Below, one piece after another: positions 5,713-15,542 of a stretch of 16,211 nt of DNA (its first letter is position 1; each line of letters starts with the position of its first letter). The stretch spans positions 1 through 16,211 of the forward strand of contig NZER01000117.1 of assembly GCA_002690445.1 (NCBI GenBank). The letters are read 5' to 3'. The position numbers and the translations under genes were made by a program. Source of the stretch: Candidatus Pacearchaeota archaeon. GTDB taxonomy: Archaea; Nanoarchaeota; Nanoarchaeia; Pacearchaeales; GW2011-AR1. A model generated the notes under the pieces. It saw only the letters and a program-made list of their open reading frames with translations, was not told the DNA's origin and did no database searches.

Positions 5713-7421
5713 TAATGTTTTAAGTCGTAGGCAATTTTGTCTTCCCCGTTATGGGTAAAGGTAATAATTTTTTGGGTATTTATATAAGGTATAAATGCTA
5801 TTTTAAAAAATCCTTCGTGAAGCCCTTTGCCTTCTAGCCAGAACAAGTCATCCATTTGAGGAAGGTATTCTATAGCTTTATGTACGTAGGGATTGCCTTC
5901 TAGGATGGGGAAAAATCTTTTGTTTGTCGCGACGTACAAGTCATGATCTGGGTATAGGTCTTGCATTGATTTAAACAGGCTTGTAGACAAAAAGAGATCT
6001 CTTTCTTTTCCCGGCATGACGAAAAGGATTTTTTTATTCTTGTCTCCTTCAGACAGGGGGTTCTCCGCGCCCGCATCAGCCTTGGAGGGGTATTTGTATT
6101 TAGTTTTTGGGGCGTCATCAATAAATTTTTCTACAATTTTGCAAACACTTTCTGATGAGTAATTATCTAACACCCATTGTCTGGCTTTTTTGCCAAGCTT
6201 TTCTTTTTTTGCCTTACCCATTGTATATACTTCGTGTATGGCTTCCGCTATTGAGTCTGGGGAAGTTGATGCTTTTTTGTATTCTGATTTATGCTCTCTG
6301 TATTCCGTCCACTCGAGAGGTATGGAGTGTGCCTCAGGTAGACACATCTCTTCCCCGCAGCTATAGTTAGTTACTAGAGTTATTAGCTCTGTTAACTTAG
6401 CTTCTTGGATTGGTATTTCTTGACCACCGGAAGTAAACGGATGGCAATAGGTGTCCATTAAGTTATATATTTCATTAAGCTGTTCTTCAGACACTCCGTT
6501 CTCGGGCATTGGGGTATAACACGACTCAGGTGCACCACAATATTTGCATTGAATTCCTTCTTCAGTAAAACTTTGAATAGTATAATTATTACAATTCATG
6601 CAACAATATGTAGTTAAAATATCTTCATTACTTAAATTGTTTTCAACTATATGTTTGTTTATATCCCACCCCTCTGACCAGCCAGTGTGTAGTAACAACT
6701 TGCTATTCGATGGATGTTGTTTTTTCCATTTAGAGAATCCTTGTAGTAAGTTTGGTACGGATTTTCTTAATTGATTTCTAAAAACAAAACCAATTACAAA
6801 ACAATTTTTATCTATTTCATTTTCTTCCCTTAATTTAAGGCTTTCTTCGTTGGGCAATTTGTAAAAAAAACTATCTTCTATGGGTCCGTGGACAGTTTTT
6901 GTATGGGTTTGTCCCAGTCTATGCAGCTCTTTGGTGGCAAAGTCAGACCATATCCAAAAATTACTACTTTTTTCTGCTGCATCTATAGTTAAGGGCAAAG
7001 CGGGTACGGAGTCTAAAGTAGTCCAGATAACTGACGTAATTTCTTTGAACCAAGGTTTTTCTATGGCGTGTGTTAACCCCCATATATCTTGTATCCCAAT
7101 GTATATATCTGGTTTTTCTTGGTAAACAACTTGGTCTAAGCTATGTATTCCGTAGTAAGCTTTTTTCGATTCTAGCTCGTCTTTTGAGAGCTTTTTTCTC
7201 GCCTCTATATCTAGAGGTATGCATCCTATTGACTTCCATGGAGTTTTTTGTAACGAGGGGGAGCCTTGTTTCTCTCCGCAAGAAAGATGAACTATATCAT
7301 ATTTATTTAATTTGTATAAATAAACCAAAATGGCCTTGGCGGTCCTGCCAAAGCCTGTCTTGGCCAAACTAAAGTCAGTTTGGAATAATATTTTTTTTCT
7401 ACCAGAGGTCATCTTCTTCAT
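5712..7421 (-). CDS. GT4-like glycosyltransferase with zinc ribbon and GT9-like N-domain
   Basis: About 569 residues from ATG 7421 (a GTG at 7424 is also possible). The N-terminus has a GT-B start (KKILFQTDFSLAKTGFGR). The second Rossmann half begins near residue 205 (CFVIGFVFRNQLRKSVPNLL), and the nucleotide-sugar motif is SGGQEIPIQEAKLTELI near 332-348, like the EX7E region of GT4 enzymes. An insertion carries two CxxC knuckles near residues 275-278 and 293-296, a likely zinc ribbon. After a linker, residues 464-570 start again with KKILFVMPGKERDL and look like the N-terminal domain of a GT9 enzyme, whose second half is in the next ORF. Likely role: sugar transfer to a phage or host surface acceptor. 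The start overlaps the end of the SSB-like gene by about 23 nt. Confidence 0.7.
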   Translation of the reverse strand: MKKMTSGRKKILFQTDFSLAKTGFGRTAKAILVYLYKLNKYDIVHLSCGEKQGSPSLQKTPWKSIGCIPLDIEARKKLSKDELESKKAYYGIHSLDQVVYQEKPDIYIGIQDIWGLTHAIEKPWFKEITSVIWTTLDSVPALPLTIDAAEKSSNFWIWSDFATKELHRLGQTHTKTVHGPIEDSFFYKLPNEESLKLREENEIDKNCFVIGFVFRNQLRKSVPNLLQGFSKWKKQHPSNSKLLLHTGWSEGWDINKHIVENNLSNEDILTTYCCMNCNNYTIQSFTEEGIQCKYCGAPESCYTPMPENGVSEEQLNEIYNLMDTYCHPFTSGGQEIPIQEAKLTELITLVTNYSCGEEMCLPEAHSIPLEWTEYREHKSEYKKASTSPDSIAEAIHEVYTMGKAKKEKLGKKARQWVLDNYSSESVCKIVEKFIDDAPKTKYKYPSKADAGAENPLSEGDKNKKILFVMPGKERDLFLSTSLFKSMQDLYPDHDLYVATNKRFFPILEGNPYVHKAIEYLPQMDDLFWLEGKGLHEGFFKIAFIPYINTQKIITFTHNGEDKIAYDLKH

Positions 7422-7962
7422 CACTCAACTCGCTTGCCTCGACTGGACTGCGGTCAGGCGCGCTATGAGTAACGTTCTGTTTGAAAGATTTCTCTATTAG
7501 TTCGTCTGTAATTTTAAAACTATCAGAAAGAAGGTGAGAAAGATGCTGCTGGAGTAACTCCGCTTCGCCAAAATTAAAACCAATCAAGAAGCTGGCCTTG
7601 TCGGTAGAGTCTTCTTTGTTCTCTTTAGTAACACTAAAAGAGAAACCTCTTTGCTCTTGTTCTCCCTTTCTAACATAGGGGCCAAAAGTAAACCTAACGA
7701 TCTGATTGCTCCCGTGATAACCAGTAAATTTTTGATTACGCTTAATTGAGTCTATAATTGAGGCTACTTCTAGGGCGCTAAACTTTATGTTAACCCTCTT
7801 GCTTGGGTTATCTTTATTCTTTTTAAACGAACCAATCCTTCTTTCGCTATTCCATCCGTCTTGCTTAATTAAGGTGGAGAAAAAGGCGTTGTCTCTCTTG
7901 TTGAGATAAAAAGAACAGGCAGTACCTGTCACTTTCGGAGTTGGCTTGTAAAAATGTATCAT
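7399..7962 (-). CDS. Putative phage ssDNA-binding protein with acidic tail
   Basis: A 187-residue protein. The N-terminal 120 residues alternate beta strands rich in basic and aromatic residues (IHFYKPTPKVTG, IGSFKKN, RVNIKFSALEVASIID), a pattern I associate with PC4/Whirly-like ssDNA-binding phage proteins. After a helical region (LLQQHLSHLL) comes a disordered Ser/Glu linker and an acidic end with a terminal aromatic, DEEDDLW. This resembles the acidic C-terminal tip by which SSB proteins and T7 gp2.5 contact replication partners. It lies directly downstream of the DnaE core but has its own consensus promoter. Transcription should start at its ATG, so the mRNA is predicted to be leaderless. 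Function is inferred from tail and context; the exact fold is uncertain. Confidence 0.5.
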   Translation of the reverse strand: MIHFYKPTPKVTGTACSFYLNKRDNAFFSTLIKQDGWNSERRIGSFKKNKDNPSKRVNIKFSALEVASIIDSIKRNQKFTGYHGSNQIVRFTFGPYVRKGEQEQRGFSFSVTKENKEDSTDKASFLIGFNFGEAELLQQHLSHLLSDSFKITDELIEKSFKQNVTHSAPDRSPVEASELSDEEDDLW

Positions 7963-7968
7963 AGTACT

Positions 7969-7996
7969 AGTATAAGGGGTTTTTTAGTTTTGTCAA
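7969..7996 (-). promoter_or_regulatory. Sigma70-type promoter of the SSB-like gene, leaderless
   Basis: On the - strand: TTGACA (7991-7996), 16-nt spacer, TATACT (7969-7974), 6 nt, ATG (7960-7962). The TGA stop of the DnaE-core gene lies within TTGACA. The promoter fills the whole 30-nt gap between the two genes, and its -35 and spacer are almost identical to those at 4540-4567. Confidence 0.8.
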
Positions 7997-10578
7997 CTGT
8001 TTTTTAATTCTGATAGTTTTGTATAAATTCTGTTGGTTTGGACCGCTATTCTGTCAGCAAATACAACTTCGTCCTTTTTTACCCCATTTACGATAACAAT
8101 GTTACTTTCTTCTGGGGGTGCGCCATTATTCTGAGTTACGCATTCTTCAAGTTTGCGGGAGAATATCATAACCTTTGAGCTTCCTGTCTCATCTTCTACA
8201 AACATCCTCAGATAGTCATTTCCGTTACGAGAAGTGCCCATGTAGGGCTTTGTTTCTACCGTACCTATGAAGGACACCCTGTCGTCCACCTCGGAGTCTT
8301 CGACGTCTCTTAGGGAAAGTAGGTCGGCTTTTTTGTCTGAGAAAATATCCCTTAAATTCTTATTATAAGTATACCCAAGTAGGTGTTTTTCGTAATACCA
8401 GTTTGCAAATGTTTCTGAATATTTATTTTTAAAATAAATTTGCTTGTATGGTTCAGACCTTGTTTTAATTGTGTTAAGGCGAGTATCCTTGATGAGGGGC
8501 TTTCCTTTCTCGTCTTTTCTTTTAGATATTTGTTTAACAATTTCAACTAAATCGTAATTATTGGACTCAGCCAGCATCATTGCAGACTTCTTCTCTTTCT
8601 TAGTTAAGATATTCCAAAGTTGAGCTTCGTAAACAATCTTGCTGCGAGACATTGTAAAGCCCTCAAAGGTGCCAGCTTGGATCAATGCGGATAAAATCCC
8701 GATAGTTAGACCTGATTCCTTTGCTCCTTCGAACACTTCAAATTTATTAGAGTAATGATTTTTAAAGTTTCCTAGTTTTTCAATTGATCTGTCCGAAATA
8801 CCCTTGATTGAAAGAAGACCGAATCTAATATCATCTTGCTCTACTTTAAAGTCCATGTCGGATTTTATAATATGAGGCGGTAAAAGTTTTATGCCAAAGT
8901 AATACATCTCTCTTTGTATCTTAGAGATTTCACTAATTGGATCTGGTTCATGGCGGGTCATTTTAAGTAGGCTCAAAAAGAATTGCTGTGGATATTTAAA
9001 CTTAAGATAAATAGTTGTAGCTGCTAAGGCCGCGTATGAAATAGAGTGAGATTTATTAAAAGAATAATTTGCAGAGTCTTCCAGAACGCTCCATAAGATG
9101 TCGCCAATTTCTGGCTCAAGATTGTTTTCTTTAATCTTGTTTTTGATTTTTCTTTTCCACTTGCGAACCTCTTTTACTTTTTTCTTGCCAACGATTCGTC
9201 TTAATATCTCTGCTTCGTCAAGCGTAAAGCCGATTTTGTTAGCCATTTTCATTAGCTGCTCTTGGTATAGGGCTACGCCTCCTGTCGATGTTAAGATGTC
9301 GTCAAAGAACGGGTGAATTGGATCGTAAGTTCCATCTTCTACGTAAGCAGCGTATTGATCAACGAAATTGAGTGCACCGGGACGAGCTAAGGCCAACACT
9401 GCGCTTAGTTCTTCTAGGTTTTTAGGCTTAACCTTTTGGCAGACACGAAAATTAGTCTCCGCTTCAATCTGAAACAGGCCATGAGGAGTTCTGAGATGCT
9501 GTAGGTTGTCGTATATAAGTTGGTCTTTGAGGTCTACGTCGGCTAGGTTGATGCCAACGCTTTTACATACATCATCAACAACCGACACTGCTCGAAGACC
9601 AAGTATGTCAAGTTTGACATTAAAAATTGAAATCCAGTTCATGTCATACGAAGCGACATGGCTTTTCTTGTCGGAAGTTAGCTCTGTTGGGCAACTGTCA
9701 TTAAGTTTTTCAAACGAAAGCGAGATTGCAGATGGGTGGACACCTTTGTTTTTTATAAGTCCCTTCAGTTTTAGCGCTATGTTGTAGCACTCTTCGTTTT
9801 CGTCGCACCAAGCTTTAAACTCTTCTTGCTCCGCATACGCTTCTTTAAGGTCTTTAATTTGTCCAAATACTTTTGGTATGAGGGAGGACACCTTGTTCAT
9901 TTCTTGTTCGCTTTTACTTCCCGCGACCTTACCGCACTCTTTAATGCAGAGTTTTCCACTGAGGGTATTTAGTGTGATAATTTTTGAGGTCTTGCCAATG
10001 AATTTTGTTTCTAAGTATTCTATTACTCTTTGGCGATTGTAATAGCAAATGTCCAAATCAACATCCATCATTAGTGAGCCATCTAAATAGGTTATTCCAT
10101 CTACCACGCTTTTTTTAGTTCTAATTTTAGATATAAATCTTTCAAAGAATAACCCATGCTCCAATGGGTCTACTTTAGTCACACCTATAAAGTATAAGAC
10201 TAAACTACCCGCCGCGCTACCGCGGCCAAGCCCCGTGGGTATATCATTCTCTTTGCAAAAATTAACTACATCCCAAACAAGAAGAAGATAATCTATAAAG
10301 CCAAGGTTTTTAATGGTTTTAAGTTCGTGCTCTAATCTTCTTGCGTACTCTCCTTTATGTTCTTTACGAACGTTACTCCACATTTTTTCTCTACCGGCTT
10401 CGCATAACGCTTCTAAAAAATCTTCGTTACTGATGTCCTCACTTACCCCAAGAGCTCTTTTATATTTGATATCGATCTCGAAAGAAGGAAGGCGTACCCC
10501 ATGGAGGGGTATGTCTAGCTCTTTAAACTGTGACGAAAATGCACTCATAATTCTATCTGCCATTTTAACTTGTTCCAT
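7993..10578 (-). CDS. dnaE: DNA polymerase III alpha (DnaE-type) core lacking PHP domain
   Basis: An 861-residue C-family replicative polymerase. Visible landmarks: palm entry GRGSAAGS (118-125); VDPLEHGLFFERF; the catalytic carboxylates in MDVDLDIC (D174, D176) and VKLDILGLR (D324), matching E. coli D401, D403 and D555 as I recall them; HPSA near 281; fingers motifs LYQEQLMKMA (about 435) and YSFNKSHSISYA (about 512); a helix-hairpin-helix-like region (FGLLSIKGISDRSIEKL); and a C-terminal OB fold (last 100 residues, from VSFIGTVE). No tau-binding domain follows, and I see no clear clamp-binding motif. The N-terminal PHP domain (about 270 residues in DnaE) is absent but is encoded separately at 12391-13146. 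The 3' end of the DnaQ gene overlaps the start; ATG 10563 or 10548 (ATGA overlap) are alternative starts. The role is phage DNA synthesis. Confidence 0.93.
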   Translation of the reverse strand: MEQVKMADRIMSAFSSQFKELDIPLHGVRLPSFEIDIKYKRALGVSEDISNEDFLEALCEAGREKMWSNVRKEHKGEYARRLEHELKTIKNLGFIDYLLLVWDVVNFCKENDIPTGLGRGSAAGSLVLYFIGVTKVDPLEHGLFFERFISKIRTKKSVVDGITYLDGSLMMDVDLDICYYNRQRVIEYLETKFIGKTSKIITLNTLSGKLCIKECGKVAGSKSEQEMNKVSSLIPKVFGQIKDLKEAYAEQEEFKAWCDENEECYNIALKLKGLIKNKGVHPSAISLSFEKLNDSCPTELTSDKKSHVASYDMNWISIFNVKLDILGLRAVSVVDDVCKSVGINLADVDLKDQLIYDNLQHLRTPHGLFQIEAETNFRVCQKVKPKNLEELSAVLALARPGALNFVDQYAAYVEDGTYDPIHPFFDDILTSTGGVALYQEQLMKMANKIGFTLDEAEILRRIVGKKKVKEVRKWKRKIKNKIKENNLEPEIGDILWSVLEDSANYSFNKSHSISYAALAATTIYLKFKYPQQFFLSLLKMTRHEPDPISEISKIQREMYYFGIKLLPPHIIKSDMDFKVEQDDIRFGLLSIKGISDRSIEKLGNFKNHYSNKFEVFEGAKESGLTIGILSALIQAGTFEGFTMSRSKIVYEAQLWNILTKKEKKSAMMLAESNNYDLVEIVKQISKRKDEKGKPLIKDTRLNTIKTRSEPYKQIYFKNKYSETFANWYYEKHLLGYTYNKNLRDIFSDKKADLLSLRDVEDSEVDDRVSFIGTVETKPYMGTSRNGNDYLRMFVEDETGSSKVMIFSRKLEECVTQNNGAPPEESNIVIVNGVKKDEVVFADRIAVQTNRIYTKLSELKNS

Positions 10579-11183
10579 ACTTTAAGATTTAACTCCAGAT
10601 CAACCAAGGCATCGTGAAGCTTGTCGGGGTTATGATTAACTTCGAACTCCCTGCCTAGTGCCGCAAGGTTTGTCCTGATTCCTTTTCTTCTTTCGTGGTA
10701 CATTTTATATTGGTACTGCGTTAGGTCTTCGGTGTTTTTATAATGCATACCATATTTTACCCCTTTTGCTATGCAATTTGTATCGATAATTTTGTTAACC
10801 AAATGTCTGTAAGATTTGCCCATGTAGTTGTAGTAGTCCTTTATTAAGTAGAGATCAAAGCCAAGAATGTTATGGCCCACCACGTAGTCAGCGTTATCCA
10901 GCCAATCTTCTATGGTTGGAAAAATTTCTTCCGGAGCTACGCCTTTTTTTTCTAGAGTCTTAGGGCTGAATCTCGTTATCCTTGCTGCTTCTGGGCTAAT
11001 CTCTAGCTTTGTGTCCCACTTGATGTAGTAATTTTTTTCAGCGATCTTTTTATCCCCCTTGGCTTTAATCATTGCTATCTGCCAAGGTAGGTTATGACAA
11101 GAGTTGAGGCAAAGGTTGAACGTTTCGCAGTCTATAAAAACGTACTCTTTTTCTTTATCGAATCTTAAAAAATCTTCATCCAT
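10545..11183 (-). CDS. dnaQ: DnaQ-like DEDDh 3'-5' exonuclease
   Basis: A 212-residue exonuclease of the Pol III epsilon/RNase T superfamily. All three Exo motifs are visible: FIDCETF (D18, E20), VVGHNILGFD (H104, D110) and HDALVDLELN (H190, D195), giving a complete DEDDh set. It lacks any long C-terminal extension. Its gene directly precedes and overlaps the DnaE-core gene, so it should be the proofreading subunit acting in trans; in E. coli the corresponding subunit binds the PHP domain. The ATG has no Shine-Dalgarno but lies 6 nt after a TATACT, the same spacing as in the leaderless promoters here. A role in nucleotide salvage from host RNA or DNA is a weaker alternative. Confidence 0.9.
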   Translation of the reverse strand: MDEDFLRFDKEKEYVFIDCETFNLCLNSCHNLPWQIAMIKAKGDKKIAEKNYYIKWDTKLEISPEAARITRFSPKTLEKKGVAPEEIFPTIEDWLDNADYVVGHNILGFDLYLIKDYYNYMGKSYRHLVNKIIDTNCIAKGVKYGMHYKNTEDLTQYQYKMYHERRKGIRTNLAALGREFEVNHNPDKLHDALVDLELNLKVWNKLKWQIEL

Positions 11184-11187
11184 GGTA

Positions 11188-11874
11188 TTAGTATAAGTCT
11201 GGTTTGTATATTTTTAGTAAAGTATCGCGACCTTCGTGATTAATTGAAGCGAAGTGTATTAAAAAATCTCCCTCTTCATAAACTCCATTATCAAACGCTT
11301 CTAAGTTTAAAACAAATTTAAAAACTCCAACCTCAAAAGTATGCCCCTCTGGGAAAAATTGCCTAGTTTCTTTTGCGACAGAGTTGAAATCTCTTTGCTT
11401 AAGTACTTTAATTCTTGAGCCCTTCTCAAAGCAGGAGTTAATAAAGGCTCCCTGCTCCCATGCAAATGAGGAGGAGTCAGTAAACTCTTCTTTTGCATAT
11501 GTATATTCTAGCATTTCTTTTGCTTCAGTCGAGTTTTTAATAAACCAAGCTCCTGTATTCCAACAGAACGCGTCTTTACATAAGATAAAGTCATATCTAT
11601 CATCGATAAAGTTAGTTAGCGAGATTGAATCATTCATGACTACGGCGTCAGCATCTATCCAAAAAATCCAATCGTACCCTTTTTCAAGAGCCTTCAATAT
11701 ATATAAAATTTTATTCCATGCTGGGGGTCTAGACTCATCCAAGACTTCCCAATGCTCCTCCCAATCATATCCGTATTTCTCTGCGTATAGCCTATTGTTC
11801 TTAAAAATCTTCTCGGCGTAAGAAGAGATATCTGGGGTCGCAAAAGACAGCATGCATATGTTCGGAGTGTTCAA
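11188..11874 (-). CDS. GT34-like (GMA12/MNN10) glycosyltransferase
   Basis: A 228-residue GT-A type enzyme. Landmarks fit the galactosyl/mannosyl transferase GMA12/MNN10 family: a substrate strand at the N-terminus, PAWNKILYILKAL (51-63), YDWIFWIDADAVVMN with the metal-binding DAD at 74-76, CWNTGAWFIKN (104-114), WEQGAF (139-144), and a late His in DFLIHFA. It should transfer a hexose from a nucleotide sugar; the acceptor is unknown. The start is TTG at 11874, set by an AAGGAGG box 6 nt upstream and by a 4-nt overlap (TTGA) with the stop of the preceding gene. It lies between the PHP gene and the DnaQ/DnaE genes, an odd place for a sugar enzyme. Confidence 0.75.
   Translation of the reverse strand: MNTPNICMLSFATPDISSYAEKIFKNNRLYAEKYGYDWEEHWEVLDESRPPAWNKILYILKALEKGYDWIFWIDADAVVMNDSISLTNFIDDRYDFILCKDAFCWNTGAWFIKNSTEAKEMLEYTYAKEEFTDSSSFAWEQGAFINSCFEKGSRIKVLKQRDFNSVAKETRQFFPEGHTFEVGVFKFVLNLEAFDNGVYEEGDFLIHFASINHEGRDTLLKIYKPDLY
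11190..11195 (-). promoter_or_regulatory. Possible -10 element of the DnaQ gene
   Basis: TATACT on the - strand ends exactly 6 nt before the DnaQ ATG (11181-11183), the same spacing as three other genes here. No TTGACA-like box is found at 16-18 nt upstream, and the hexamer overlaps the last codons and stop of the glycosyltransferase gene, so it could be chance. Confidence 0.35.
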
Positions 11875-12404
11875 TAGTGCCCTCCTTCATAAACGCCCGT
11901 CGGCAATCTGTCTAAGGTCTCGTCCGAATTCAGCTTTGAGATTGGTATGTTATAGCAGTCTGCTCTAAAGTAAAAACCTGCATTTGGTGGTGAGTCTGGA
12001 TCTAGGTCTCCTTCTTTGTAGAATTTTGCCTCTTTATAAAAATCCTTCTTACTTATTTTACCCAAGTACCATGCGGTAGAGTGATCGTTTAATACGCTCA
12101 CGAAAGCATACTCGTCACACTCTTGCTTGGTGTTAAAGTCTGCTACGGTGCAGTTATAATTTTCTCTTGGAGGTACCGTCCTCTCCTTCGTTTTAACATC
12201 AACCTTAGTGCCGTCACCGTACGTTACATCATAGTCATAGGTGTCTTCTATTTTTCCGCGCAAAACCCTTTTAACAACTTCTTCACCTATGTAGGCAACG
12301 ACTGCCCCTTCACCTCCTCTAATTGAATTATTGAGCAGGGGCAAGGTCTTTGCTCTGTCTTTTATATTCAGCAGCGTGCTACTTGAAATCTTAAACTTTT
12401 TCAT
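11871..12404 (-). CDS. Putative PD-(D/E)XK-fold nuclease-like protein
   Basis: A 177-residue soluble protein. A helix with GEGAVVAYIGEEVVKRVL (31-48) precedes DYDVTYGDGTKVDVKTKER, where D59 and the D69-x-K71 pair fit the core of the PD-(D/E)XK nuclease fold (acidic helix, then D and [DE]xK on adjacent strands). A third strand with YAFVSVL and a tryptophan-containing strand follow. The C-terminal third (YFRADCYNIP, LPTGVYEGGHY) is unassigned. It may be a restriction-like, repair or homing-type endonuclease. ATG 12404 is preceded by GGAAGGA, a fair Shine-Dalgarno lying inside the 3' end of the PHP gene (14-nt overlap). It sits between the two parts of the split polymerase. The fold call is by motif only. 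Confidence 0.55.
   Translation of the reverse strand: MKKFKISSSTLLNIKDRAKTLPLLNNSIRGGEGAVVAYIGEEVVKRVLRGKIEDTYDYDVTYGDGTKVDVKTKERTVPPRENYNCTVADFNTKQECDEYAFVSVLNDHSTAWYLGKISKKDFYKEAKFYKEGDLDPDSPPNAGFYFRADCYNIPISKLNSDETLDRLPTGVYEGGHY
11881..11887 (-). promoter_or_regulatory. Strong Shine-Dalgarno deciding a TTG start
   Basis: AAGGAGG on the - strand, 6 nt before TTG 11874. It is the best ribosome binding site in the window, within the end of the preceding coding region, and it supports TTG over the internal ATG codons. Confidence 0.75.
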
Positions 12405-13146
12405 TCTTTTCCTTCCAGCTTTCTACGCAAAATTCATCGCTAGTCATGTGTTCAATCTCTGGTTTCTCAAGGGTACTGCGGTTGTTGATACAACGAAACG
12501 TCAAGTACGCCTTAAAGTCCTCCTTGTTTTTGTAATAAATGCTTTGGGTCTTCTGCGTTTTGTTTGATATGTTCATTACTTTTAGTTTGATTAGGTTATC
12601 AAATGGCAGGTCGTTATCCTCTAGAAAATAAGTAGGCTCAGTGAAGTCAAGCTCTGGTACGCAGATATTACTATAGAGTGTGTTCTTAAAAACGTAAGAA
12701 TCATAAAATGGTATTGCCATTGAAAGGTCTTCGTCGCTCCATTCCTTTTTTAAGTTCTTGTAGTCTATTCGTGGTTCATAGTAGAAGCCATCTCTTGCGG
12801 CTAGAGAAAAAATTCTTATTAACCTTTTGTATCCTTCTTCGTTCTTTAGCAGAATGACTATCTTGTTGTTCGTTTTTAGGGAGTCTGCATCTTTTTGGCT
12901 CATATCGTTACAAATAGTAAGTCTTATTCCGAAAATTAGTTTGATGCCTAGGTCTTTCGAATTTTGGTAGGCCTGAAGGAATCCGCTCATATTATGATCA
13001 ATGAGTATTAATTCCTTTAGTTTAAGCTCTTCGCAAATATCAAAAATTGAATCTGATTCATCTGGGTCAGAGTCATTATTCTCAAGGGTTAAGATGGATC
13101 TGCCCAAACTATAGTGAGATTTGAAAACCGGTAAAACTCCGTCCAT
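12391..13146 (-). CDS. Stand-alone PHP domain of DNA polymerase III alpha
   Basis: This 251-residue protein matches the N-terminal part of DnaE. It has the opening strand and SHYSL (10-14), a helix, ELILIDHNMSGFLQAYQNSKDLGIKLIFGIRLTI (about 45-78, the TDH-N-x-x-G...GIKPIIG region), and VILLKNEEGYKRLIRIFSLA (about 98-117). Near the end a DEFCVESWKE helix corresponds to the DnaE region just after the PHP domain. The protein stops where the DnaE-core protein begins, so 251 + 861 residues approximate one full DnaE. The usual HxH metal ligands near the N-terminus are replaced (VFK at that place by my alignment), while D50-H51 remain, so phosphoesterase activity is doubtful. It probably serves as a scaffold for the polymerase core and DnaQ. 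Its own consensus promoter predicts a leaderless mRNA. Confidence 0.8.
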   Translation of the reverse strand: MDGVLPVFKSHYSLGRSILTLENNDSDPDESDSIFDICEELKLKELILIDHNMSGFLQAYQNSKDLGIKLIFGIRLTICNDMSQKDADSLKTNNKIVILLKNEEGYKRLIRIFSLAARDGFYYEPRIDYKNLKKEWSDEDLSMAIPFYDSYVFKNTLYSNICVPELDFTEPTYFLEDNDLPFDNLIKLKVMNISNKTQKTQSIYYKNKEDFKAYLTFRCINNRSTLEKPEIEHMTSDEFCVESWKEKNEKV

Positions 13147-13152
13147 AAAGCA

Positions 13153-13180
13153 AGTATACAGCTTTTTTTACAAATGTCAA
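13153..13180 (-). promoter_or_regulatory. Sigma70-type promoter of the PHP gene, leaderless
   Basis: On the - strand: TTGACA (13175-13180), 16-nt spacer with an A-tract, TATACT (13153-13158), 6 nt, ATG (13144-13146). As with the two other cassettes, the upstream TGA stop lies inside the -35 box and the intergenic gap is exactly 30 nt. Confidence 0.8.
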
Positions 13181-14136
13181 ATCCAATCGCATGGATCTTC
13201 TGGCGCGTCTTGTTCGTGCGCTGGGCACCCCTCGTACCTCTTTTTGGTTATCTTTTGTCCAGATTTAGCGGGCTTTAGCTCCTCTTCGGTAAAGGCACCT
13301 TTAAGAATGTTACCATCTTTGTCTTCAAGGGAGTAATAATCATACGGCTCTAGGTAGGGACATTTCCAGTGTTGTCCGGCCTTGCAGAAGAATTTTGTTT
13401 CCATTTTATCTTTTGCATAATTGGTTTTTGCTTGATCTTCTGTAAAGGAGTTGATTATTTCGTACATATAGGCGAGATAATGCTCAAAGCCGTCAAGCTG
13501 TTCCTTGGAAATTGTTATTTGTTGAGAGGGTTGCCTCGGGAACTTTAAAAATAAAAATTCTACCTCTACATTGTCTGCTGATTTGGGCCATTTTCTTTTA
13601 GCCGCGAGGGTATATGCCATCGCTTGTATGTTGGACGCTAGGTCTTTAGAGGGGAACTTTCTTTTGCTTGATTTGTAGTCAACTATTTTTATTTTGTCTT
13701 TGTATTTGATCTTTTTGTCGATGAATCCCGTTATCTCATACTTCGGATTTTCGTTTTTGATTGAGAACCGGATTTCAGGCTTATCAGCTACTCCTCCTGC
13801 TCCAAAAAAATCAGAATTTAAGCCAACATAAACCATGTCTAGGCACATTTCGTAGTTTTCTTCGCTGTAACAAGTGCTTTTTGTAAGGAGGGTTTTAATG
13901 AGTCTTGCTATGGGTTTGCTAGCTTTCGTGAAACCCTTCTCAATTATTAAATCAAAATGTTTTCTGTGTTTCTTATTTAGGAGAAGCTCAAAAACAGTGT
14001 GACATACTAAGCCGCGACAGGCTCCATCGTTTTGGGTTTGGGGTATCTTTAGGTTGTAGTTGCACCAATACTTCCAAGAACAATCTTCAAGAGTTTTAAT
14101 TCTTGACGCGGACAATACTTTTTTTTCTTTAGCCAA
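13177..14136 (-). CDS. Cas4/RecB-like PD-(D/E)XK nuclease with Fe-S cysteines
   Basis: A 319-residue nuclease. The order of motifs fits the Cas4/RecB/AddB superfamily: SASRIKTLEDCSWKYW with C19 and C25; RGLVCHTVFELLL (H46); EIRFSI (E121); TGFIDKK (D140); KIVDYKSSKRK (D153, K155); and QAMAYTLA (Q171, Y175). Cysteines near the C-terminus (C251, C259, C304) together with C19 or C25 could bind a 4Fe-4S cluster as in Cas4 and AddB. There is no CRISPR array here, so a role in phage recombination or end processing is more likely, perhaps with the annealing protein at 3808-4533. The start is TTG at 14136, after AAAGG at a rather long spacing. A TTGCAT/TATACT promoter lies upstream. Confidence 0.8.
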   Translation of the reverse strand: MAKEKKVLSASRIKTLEDCSWKYWCNYNLKIPQTQNDGACRGLVCHTVFELLLNKKHRKHFDLIIEKGFTKASKPIARLIKTLLTKSTCYSEENYEMCLDMVYVGLNSDFFGAGGVADKPEIRFSIKNENPKYEITGFIDKKIKYKDKIKIVDYKSSKRKFPSKDLASNIQAMAYTLAAKRKWPKSADNVEVEFLFLKFPRQPSQQITISKEQLDGFEHYLAYMYEIINSFTEDQAKTNYAKDKMETKFFCKAGQHWKCPYLEPYDYYSLEDKDGNILKGAFTEEELKPAKSGQKITKKRYEGCPAHEQDAPEDPCDWI

Positions 14137-14143
14137 TAGAGGG

Positions 14144-14269
14144 TTACCTTTCTATAGAGAGTATACTAGTTATTTCTTTCAATGCAAAACAAAAAATTAA
14201 AAAAATAACCCCAAGAAGGTAGAAGAAAGTAAGAAGCATAGCCCAAAGAAAAGACAGGGAACTCCTCAT
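14144..14269 (-). CDS. Small single-pass membrane peptide (41 aa)
   Basis: The ATG at 14269 overlaps the stop of the dehydrogenase gene by one base (TAATG), so translation is probably coupled. After MRSSLSF comes a hydrophobic stretch of about 23 residues (LWAMLLTFFYLLGVIFLIFC), then a short polar tail ending KEITSILSIER. One membrane helix is clear. No family is recognised; small phage membrane peptides can be lysis accessories or host-interaction factors, but nothing here decides. It accounts for the gap between the dehydrogenase and the Cas4-like gene. Confidence 0.55.
   Translation of the reverse strand: MRSSLSFLWAMLLTFFYLLGVIFLIFCFALKEITSILSIER
14160..14187 (-). promoter_or_regulatory. 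Promoter of the Cas4-like nuclease gene
   Basis: On the - strand: TTGCAT (14182-14187), 16-nt spacer, TATACT (14160-14165), then a leader of about 17 nt to TTG 14136 with AAAGG as a possible Shine-Dalgarno. The spacing matches the three TTGACA promoters, but here the gene keeps a leader. It lies inside the end of the 41-aa membrane ORF. Confidence 0.55.
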
Positions 14270-15381
14270 TATATAATCTCTAATAATTTTAAATTATTAT
14301 TAAACTCTTCGAACGGGACATCCCTGTAAGAAAGGTTAACGGGGTACTGCGTGTGGTAATCTCTGCGTTCATCCTTGTTGCCTTCTAGTTTTCCTTCTGC
14401 CATAATTTTGGCGACACTTGATATAGAAAATGCTGTCGCTTTTTGCATTGCTGAAAATTGTTTGTCAGACTTGATAACTTTTTCTTGCCTCCAAGTTTTG
14501 TCTCCCCCTTTAACTTCTGCTAGTATAAAAACTTCATCTCTGTCTACGAACCCGCACCCTTTAGTGAATATGTCGACTAATGTTTTGTCGTCAAGCTCGC
14601 AGTCTCTAATTAAAAATCTAACTATGTCTCTGTGCCCTTGGTATCTTAGTGTTTTGTAGTAGCAATTTTTTACGCCGCGCTCTTTCATTGAGTGAATGGA
14701 GTGGGATGCCCCTCCGCTCGTATAAAAAGCCTCCATGGTTCCGAATTTTTTGCCCTCGACAGTTTCTAGGCCATCCATTCCTCTCACTGTTTTGAGTTCA
14801 CCGTTTTCAAGAATGATGCAATCGTCTCTATATTCGTTTATTAGCCCGTCAATAGACCAAGTAATTCCGTATCTCAGGGGATTAAGGTTGCTGTCATGGT
14901 AGTCGGGTAATCCTCCGACCATCATTCTTACCGTCTCTACTGGCCCGTGAATTTGCCTACATCCTTCTTCAGCTAAGATATTTACCCACCCCGGTGCAAG
15001 GCCAAGGTCTGTAAAAACTGGGCTCTTGATTGGTCCTCCGTGATTTTTTGCTGCGTCATTTATGTTTTGTGACACATCTACTCTGCCTCCTAGGTCACAG
15101 TAGCGAAATGAATTATCATTACACCAATGGCCGACTTCCTCTGTCTGGTGGTATGGTAAACTACTTATAACAATATCAGGCTTCTCGAACATTAGCGCTC
15201 GCGGAAAAGTCTTATTTTCGTCAGTCAAATAAAACGCGCCATTGGGGCCGGAAATATGTTTTCTAAAGTTATCCGCGGCGCCAGCGTATGAATCTACGCC
15301 TACAACATCAAAGCCCAGCTTGTTCATTGCGTAACAAATAGCTGTGCCCATCTTACCTACACCTAGGACTGCCGCTTTCAT
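14269..15381 (-). CDS. Saccharopine/lysine dehydrogenase-like oxidoreductase
   Basis: A 370-residue NAD(P)-binding enzyme. The Rossmann motif is GVGKMG (7-12), and a family hallmark is TDLGLAPGWVNILAEEG (124-140), followed by VRMMVGGLPD and YGITWSIDGLINEYRDD, then FGTMEAFYTSGGASHS and KTLRYQGHRDIVRFL. This series matches saccharopine dehydrogenase family proteins, especially the lysine 6-dehydrogenase-like branch. It would oxidise an amino-acid substrate at the amine. In a phage this is an auxiliary metabolic gene candidate; the true substrate (lysine, saccharopine or a polyamine precursor) cannot be read. The start is ATG 15381 with AAAGGA 6 nt upstream, rather than the upstream ATG/GTG that would add a 13-residue tail overlapping the membrane peptide gene. 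Confidence 0.8.
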   Translation of the reverse strand: MKAAVLGVGKMGTAICYAMNKLGFDVVGVDSYAGAADNFRKHISGPNGAFYLTDENKTFPRALMFEKPDIVISSLPYHQTEEVGHWCNDNSFRYCDLGGRVDVSQNINDAAKNHGGPIKSPVFTDLGLAPGWVNILAEEGCRQIHGPVETVRMMVGGLPDYHDSNLNPLRYGITWSIDGLINEYRDDCIILENGELKTVRGMDGLETVEGKKFGTMEAFYTSGGASHSIHSMKERGVKNCYYKTLRYQGHRDIVRFLIRDCELDDKTLVDIFTKGCGFVDRDEVFILAEVKGGDKTWRQEKVIKSDKQFSAMQKATAFSISSVAKIMAEGKLEGNKDERRDYHTQYPVNLSYRDVPFEEFNNNLKLLEII

Positions 15382-15387
15382 TTTATA

Positions 15388-15393
15388 TCCTTT
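15388..15393 (-). promoter_or_regulatory. Shine-Dalgarno deciding the dehydrogenase start
   Basis: AAAGGA on the - strand lies 6 nt before ATG 15381. It selects this ATG, which also gives the normal N-terminus directly before the Rossmann glycine motif. Confidence 0.7.
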
Positions 15394-15398
15394 TCTTA

Positions 15399-15542
15399 TT
15401 AAAAAAATTCTAACCACCAAAGAGTTAGTATCGCTATAAGTATAGCAACCTCTATAGTGTATTGTCCATTAAAAAATAAAAGAGTAGACAATGTTATTAT
15501 AGATAATCCTATAAATAAATCTTTCCAATTTTTTTTATTCAT
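15399..15542 (-). CDS. Small two-helix membrane peptide (47 aa)
   Basis: An ORF from ATG 15542 to TAA 15399. After a Lys-rich N-terminus (MNKKNWKD) come two hydrophobic segments, LFIGLSIITLSTLLFF (9-24) and EVAILIAILTLWWLEFF (31-47), separated by NGQYTI, a helical hairpin. Its ATG overlaps the last codons of the preceding gene (8 nt including the stop), in operon style. It may be a membrane partner of the preceding two-helix protein, but no family is recognised. Confidence 0.55.
   Translation of the reverse strand: MNKKNWKDLFIGLSIITLSTLLFFNGQYTIEVAILIAILTLWWLEFF
15439..15468 (-). promoter_or_regulatory. Weak candidate promoter before the dehydrogenase gene
   Basis: On the - strand: TGGACA (15463-15468), 18-nt spacer, TATACT (15439-15444), followed by about 57 nt to ATG 15381 with a good Shine-Dalgarno. 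It is inside the 47-aa ORF. The -10 matches the others here, but the -35 and spacer are off. Confidence 0.3.

Follow-up and report, generated by a model that had tools for sequence, protein, structure and literature searches.

A phage C-family polymerase encoded as separate PHP and polymerase genes with a DnaQ-type exonuclease gene between them

The 16,211-nt contig NZER01000117.1, deposited as Candidatus Pacearchaeota archaeon and referred to here as a whole as the window, carries a set of phage replication genes on its minus strand in which DnaE, the alpha subunit of DNA polymerase III (Pol III), is divided between two open reading frames (ORFs). One ORF corresponds to the DnaE PHP domain and the other to the remainder of the enzyme (the core), with a gene for a DnaQ-type exonuclease between them. 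The window's genes from 7399 to 14136 overlap or lie at most about 30 nt apart, and thus look like a single operon; the DnaQ gene and the start of the polymerase gene share 34 nt. In the order in which they would be transcribed, these genes are:

13177..14136, minus strand: PD-(D/E)XK exonuclease gene (Pfam PDDEXK_1, 9.1e-18; phrog_69), directly upstream of the PHP gene
12391..13146, minus strand: PHP half of DnaE, 251 aa, with a degenerate metal site
11871..12404, minus strand: 177-aa ORF overlapping the 3' end of the PHP gene
11188..11874, minus strand: GT34-like glycosyltransferase gene at the PHP/DnaQ junction (Pfam Glyco_transf_34, 1.6e-14)
10545..11183, minus strand: DnaQ-type 3'-5' exonuclease, 212 aa (Pfam RNase_T, 1.1e-14; NF004964, 4.4e-16, below that model's cut-off)
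7993..10578, minus strand: polymerase half of DnaE, 861 aa, with palm/NTPase, fingers, HhH and OB fold and no PHP
7399..7962, minus strand: 187-aa ORF with an acidic C-terminal tail, directly downstream of the polymerase gene

The two halves cover complementary parts of single-chain DnaE references: positions 12-250 (PHP) and 278-1050 (core) of the single-chain DnaE model NF004226, 63-292 and 318-1076 of phrog_405, and 3-251 and 276-911 of the structure 2hqa. Structure comparison assigns the 251-aa protein to the DnaE PHP fold, as the original prediction had proposed, and the protein retains a C-terminal DnaE-like segment. The 861-aa protein had been said to hold everything else, including three catalytic aspartates and the OB fold, and for the following parts this is borne out: palm/NTPase, fingers and HhH domains are found by Pfam and by alignment to PDB structures, D172, D174 and D324 are invariant in the alignment, and residues about 752-851 of the core model align with OB structures C-terminal to the fingers, where the Pfam OB match is weak (E 0.15). 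When the region of the C-terminal tau-binding domain was examined, the core's match to NF004226 was found to stop at position 1050 of 1146. The domain order through the OB fold is that of single-chain DnaE1 from E. coli, Thermus and Mycobacterium, but PHP is fused there, whereas it is a separate gene in the window and in all fetched relatives that hold both halves. Complementary coverage and the position of the cut support the view that PHP and core represent one DnaE divided at the PHP/polymerase boundary rather than two unrelated genes.

We compared gene order across four sets of relatives, which overlap and contain near-copies. The first comprises viral contigs found with the window's proteins (82 loci from 80 contigs, the best 80 of 434 core relatives; 83 core loci with the window), the second 11 contigs from metagenome-assembled genomes (MAGs), 10 of them with a family core, the third a scan centered on the distant member L090, whose core is 43% identical to the window's (the best 80 of at least 476 loci), and the fourth a search from PHP (the best 80 of at least 571, with 79 scanned because L003 had been scanned earlier). 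One weak match (L096) and the named phages L083-L085 were left out of the order counts. At every locus holding all three genes, PHP, DnaQ and core are separate genes on one strand in that order (80/80, 9/9, 76/76 and 69/69 in the four sets). The incomplete loci largely reflect contig ends: L006, L021 and L024 in the first set hold a core on contigs that begin within another ORF upstream of DnaQ, too late for PHP to be looked for; the MAG contig L087 begins inside DnaQ; and the four loci of the L090 scan without all three genes are cut by contig ends. In the PHP-based set, DnaQ and core lie downstream at 69 of 79 loci and PHP shares a frame with the core at 0 of 79; among the ten others, the contig stops within 1.5 kb in six cases, the core lies further on in three, and one contig (L228) has none.

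The family is broad: 164 cores, not every one with a PHP gene on the same contig, fall into 117 clusters at 95% identity and 30 at 70%, with a lowest pairwise identity of 40.4%. No fused PHP-core relative of the window's clade was seen among the best-listed loci, whether sought from the core or the PHP side, and none of the 120 proteins listed from 3695 database relatives, all 845-881 aa long, carries a PHP Pfam label. Seven viral contigs of 84-172 kb, possibly fragments, each hold exactly one PHP match and one PF07733 match (7/7), which gives no sign of a further, intact DnaE. Two outcomes would have spoken against the original prediction: a 251-aa protein unlike DnaE PHP in structure, or an intact polymerase in related phages together with an assembly error in the window. 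Neither was observed. The fold is that of DnaE PHP, PHP and core share a frame in no fetched relative, and recurrence in many related contigs excludes an assembly error. The split is an old, lineage-wide trait of the fetched contigs. Cores from the cultured phages in INPHARED are all below 60% identity, and this large phage group with a split DnaE is known here solely from environmental sequence.

The PHP protein has lost nearly all of its metal site. We read the ligands of the HHDHEHCDH motif that marks active PHP nucleases (PMC12926913, in the portion of that paper drawn on here) in 160 family PHPs aligned with the PHP domains of six other phages, placing the HxH pair, where the aligner opens a gap, by anchoring on the following YS; the pair was readable in 151 sequences, the other 9 having no motif. 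At six of the nine ligands the canonical residue is absent without exception (151/151 for the HxH pair, 160/160 for the others). The HxH residues are replaced by L/I/V/F and K/T/R/Q, the glutamate by R or K (158/160), the third histidine by K (158/160), the late aspartate by S/T/N and the late histidine by Y/F/L/C/V, and these replacements are themselves largely conserved, with K in 142/151 within the HxH pair. In motif II the aspartate is retained in 23/160 and the histidine in 7/160, the window having both, while the column of the cysteine ligand lies in a gapped stretch where its reading is unreliable. The family PHP is therefore probably not a nuclease. Its gene is nonetheless under constraint: nonsynonymous divergence (dN) between the window and L001 is 0.097 with synonymous divergence (dS) saturated, and median dN/dS is 0.043 over the 4 of 21 pairs with usable dS, none of which includes the window. 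PHP diverges faster than the core (median pairwise identity 53.6 vs 66.2), and its distances track those of the core with r 0.94 and a partial correlation of 0.41 (51 loci).

DnaQ looks active. Residues D18, E20, D110, H190 and D195 are invariant in a 21-row alignment and are assigned by motif to the DEDDh set. In E. coli, the exonuclease subunit epsilon binds PHP (PMC3919608), PHP is structurally integrated into the polymerase, altering it makes the enzyme less stable and less active, and a lost PHP metal site goes together with a separate exonuclease (PMC3666897; both sources as excerpted). The combination of a degenerate PHP with an intact DnaQ motif matches the E. coli situation.

Starting from the observed homology and boundaries of the two halves, their conserved gene order, the loss of the metal site and the constraint on sequence, we propose with good confidence that the replicase of these phages is a split C-family enzyme, in which PHP and core would be made as two polypeptides and reassemble non-covalently at the domain boundary where the bacterial enzyme is a continuous chain, with PHP non-catalytic and DnaQ proofreading. 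Reassembly itself is plausible by analogy with the split phage enzymes described below. With nearly all metal ligands lost, PHP would probably serve as a structural adaptor, as has been proposed for E. coli DnaE, and the active-looking DnaQ would probably dock on it. The split may have originated by insertion of DNA into an ancestral fused dnaE; the inserted DNA could well have been a mobile nuclease gene. A more speculative extension, which we regard as possible but put at somewhat under even, is a three-part Pol III core in which PHP, a domain always fused in bacterial replicases, would act as an independent, non-catalytic adaptor that keeps the proofreader attached to the polymerase and is able to come off; the cut would have been reached at least twice, and the PHP/palm linker would be a natural seam of C-family polymerases.

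Several observations weigh against this proposal. The partial correlation between PHP and core (0.41) is exceeded by those of GT570-ORF382 (0.76), DnaQ-core (0.58) and core-exonuclease (0.51), and since genes of one operon co-diverge in any case, such mirror-tree statistics do not distinguish contact from co-inheritance. The DnaQ exonuclease domain occupies residues 15-202 of 212, so a PHP-binding C-terminal tail of the epsilon type is short or absent. At the split itself, the window's lineage has no conserved endonuclease, inserts being present at some loci and missing at others. Finally, L228 carries a family PHP gene without a core and with no DnaQ in the 4 kb downstream.

That last contig, 11.9 kb long, also fits a different account, in which the core is self-sufficient and PHP has taken on another function, such as binding DNA or proteins. 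The faster divergence of PHP and the conservation of the replacements in its metal site point the same way, but we consider this account unlikely, given that PHP retains its fold and its DnaE-like C-terminal segment and that DnaQ and core follow its gene on every sufficiently long fetched contig except L228. Less probable still is the production of a single chain from both halves, whether through trans-splicing, frameshifting or a hidden joint transcript. The cores of the relatives L092 and L121 do have split-intein-like ends, yet PHP ORFs measure 247-285 aa from stop to stop at 78 of 79 loci, too short to include an intein half, the sole longer PHP frame (L231) continues into an unrelated stretch, and DnaQ, together with up to 2.3 kb preceding it in the scanned loci, separates the two halves.

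We give equally little credence to a core that uses the PHP of host DnaE, with the phage PHP as a remnant: no point in its favor was found, and the phage PHP is kept with constraint and gene order where a remnant would vanish in some lineages. As for a sequencing or assembly artefact, or decay of an intact gene, DnaE is indeed broken in odd places in other phage records (L085, Vibrio phage PVA7), but the relatives refute this explanation, which we regard as having practically no chance of being right, because the arrangement recurs under constraint in many contigs (the 117 core clusters at 95%).

A cut at this position is not new to phages, and the original prediction, which treated the arrangement as undescribed, is not supported on this point. 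Microbacterium phages of Krampusvirus and an Arthrobacter phage of Wollypogvirus likewise encode PHP and polymerase on two genes with a near-identical cut point; the halves measure 345 + 767 aa in Krampus, 308 + 739 aa in Wollypog and 344 + 751 aa in RikSengupta, and match NF004226 at 4-280 + 306-874, 4-279 + 315-858 and 4-280 + 293-859, respectively. Unlike the window's clade, these three have no DnaQ between the halves by annotation, and their PHPs still show HxH and EH residues of the metal motif; in Wollypog the halves flank a gene annotated as an HNH endonuclease. Streptomyces phage ShakeNBake has a fused DnaE, 57-62% identical. In an unrooted tree of 45 core rows, a branch with SH-aLRT 99 separates the 30 rows belonging to the window's clade from the rest, and the three split actinophage cores nest among fused actinophage polymerases, apart from that clade; the tree was made by a quick method, ten rows have odd composition, and three long outgroup rows are of unsure place, one of them beside the window's clade (a core piece from L085 served as an outgroup row). 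Most simply, then, the split at the PHP/polymerase seam would have arisen twice. A 2011 survey of viral replicases by Kazlauskas and Venclovas may mention such splits. Among open-licence papers, the nearest published mention that we found, in the text available to us, is one sentence stating that cluster EF phages (AnnaSerena, Krampus) have two genes related to the typically single-gene Pol III alpha (PMC7302621). A PHP/polymerase split as such was thus already known, and what is new is an old, lineage-wide split with DnaQ inside it and a degenerate PHP.

Other divided replication enzymes offer partial parallels. Group 2.2 jumbo phages also spread a C-family polymerase over two proteins, but in that split minimal Pol III alpha the cut falls within the catalytic part, further Pol III domains are absent, a family B polymerase is encoded beside it, and the two genes are distant (PMC7824862, as excerpted). 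Aeh1 nrdA, T4 topoisomerase gene 60 and phage 25 gene 43 likewise yield phage replication enzymes in two chains, and reassembly has been demonstrated for the first and the last of these: Aeh1 NrdA works in its split form, and the phage 25 halves gp43A/B co-purify with activity (PMC2988022, in part). That source places a homing endonuclease in the split of nrdA and gene 60, whose relatives are intact, and leaves the cause open for gene 43, whereas the window's clade has a constant split and no constant endonuclease. PolC also encodes an exonuclease between its PHP and polymerase parts, but there it is inserted within the PHP of one chain (PMC3919608, in part), while the window's clade uses three genes and is nearer DnaE in sequence and fold. 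The word PHP is absent from the available text of a paper dealing with polymerase swapping in phages (PMC11348598), and PF07733 is described as the mark of one marine jumbo phage group (PMC9123017, in part).

What PHP contributes to replicases in which it has ceased to act as a nuclease is described as not entirely understood (PMC3666897, as excerpted). Separate PHP and polymerase proteins let PHP be omitted or re-added and its role as stabilizer, exonuclease dock, or both be tested by simple omission, making the arrangement of moderate to high interest. Sources that name the halves tend to give both the name DNA polymerase III alpha, so that one polymerase would be counted twice in viromes. 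Eleven viral records of 84-203 kb, possibly fragments, gave no match to a bacterial-type beta clamp (PF00712, DNA_pol3_beta); the replicase may use a host or other clamp, or the records may be incomplete.

Between PHP and DnaQ, the spacing varies. The two are adjacent (profile-match gap below 150 nt) at 33/80, 6/9, 59/76 and 29/69 loci in the four sets, and the remaining loci have a wider gap, up to 2.3 kb before DnaQ, usually with other genes in it. These inserts, mostly named by eye, differ among relatives and include 177-aa-type ORFs, small possible nucleases, glycosyltransferases and a cupin-like protein; the window's 177-aa ORF (13 of 83 loci, counting the window and two pairs of loci from one contig) and glycosyltransferase (3 of 83, counting the window) are of this kind. 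The 177-aa ORF has a restriction-nuclease-like D..DVKTK motif by eye, no match in Pfam, PHROG or NCBIfam, and chance-level syntaxin matches in a PDB profile search. Since DnaQ is constant and the inserts vary, our reading is that an old event separated PHP from core, leaving DnaQ in the middle, and that the PHP/DnaQ joint became an insertion site later. In L231 (1751-3067), PHP and an insert form one 439-aa frame, whose C-terminal extension has no Pfam match and resembles, by eye, a separate inserted ORF of L076. Many relatives (for example L023 and L028) have a DnaQ-core spacer of about 200 nt with a small ORF, 50 of which form one cluster.

Other interrupted polymerases were met along the way. 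The core of the MAG contig L092 (7971-10955) lies in two ORFs with split-intein-like ends at NFNK|SHS, close to the site of the cyanobacterial DnaE split intein, with Pfam Intein_splicing matching the first ORF only and below cut-off; in L121 (5962-9039) such ends lie elsewhere, at GRG|SAAG, with intein families on the first ORF only and below cut-offs. DnaE is interrupted at other points in Alicyclobacillus phage KKP_3916 (L180, 4848-7198), where it adjoins a LAGLIDADG ORF, and in Rossellomorea phage phiT1 (L083, 3209-6491). DnaE lies in overlapping frames in Vibrio phage PVA7 and in L085, a gut record; sequencing faults may be the cause, and neither was taken as an example of a split.

At the two ends of the operon, the PD-(D/E)XK exonuclease gene and the 187-aa ORF are conserved neighbors, found at 77/83 and 74/83 loci, respectively, with the window counted. 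The 187-aa ORF (7399-7962) has no Pfam, PHROG or NCBIfam family match; it ends in the acidic sequence DEEDDLW, which we liken to the tails of single-strand DNA-binding proteins. Elsewhere in the window, a saccharopine dehydrogenase-like gene (14269-15420; Pfam Sacchrp_dh_C, 1.5e-24) lies beside the phage replication genes, and a threonine-serine repeat ORF (2625-2960) and a glycine-tyrosine-glutamine repeat at the window's edge (1-263) perhaps encode structural or tail proteins.

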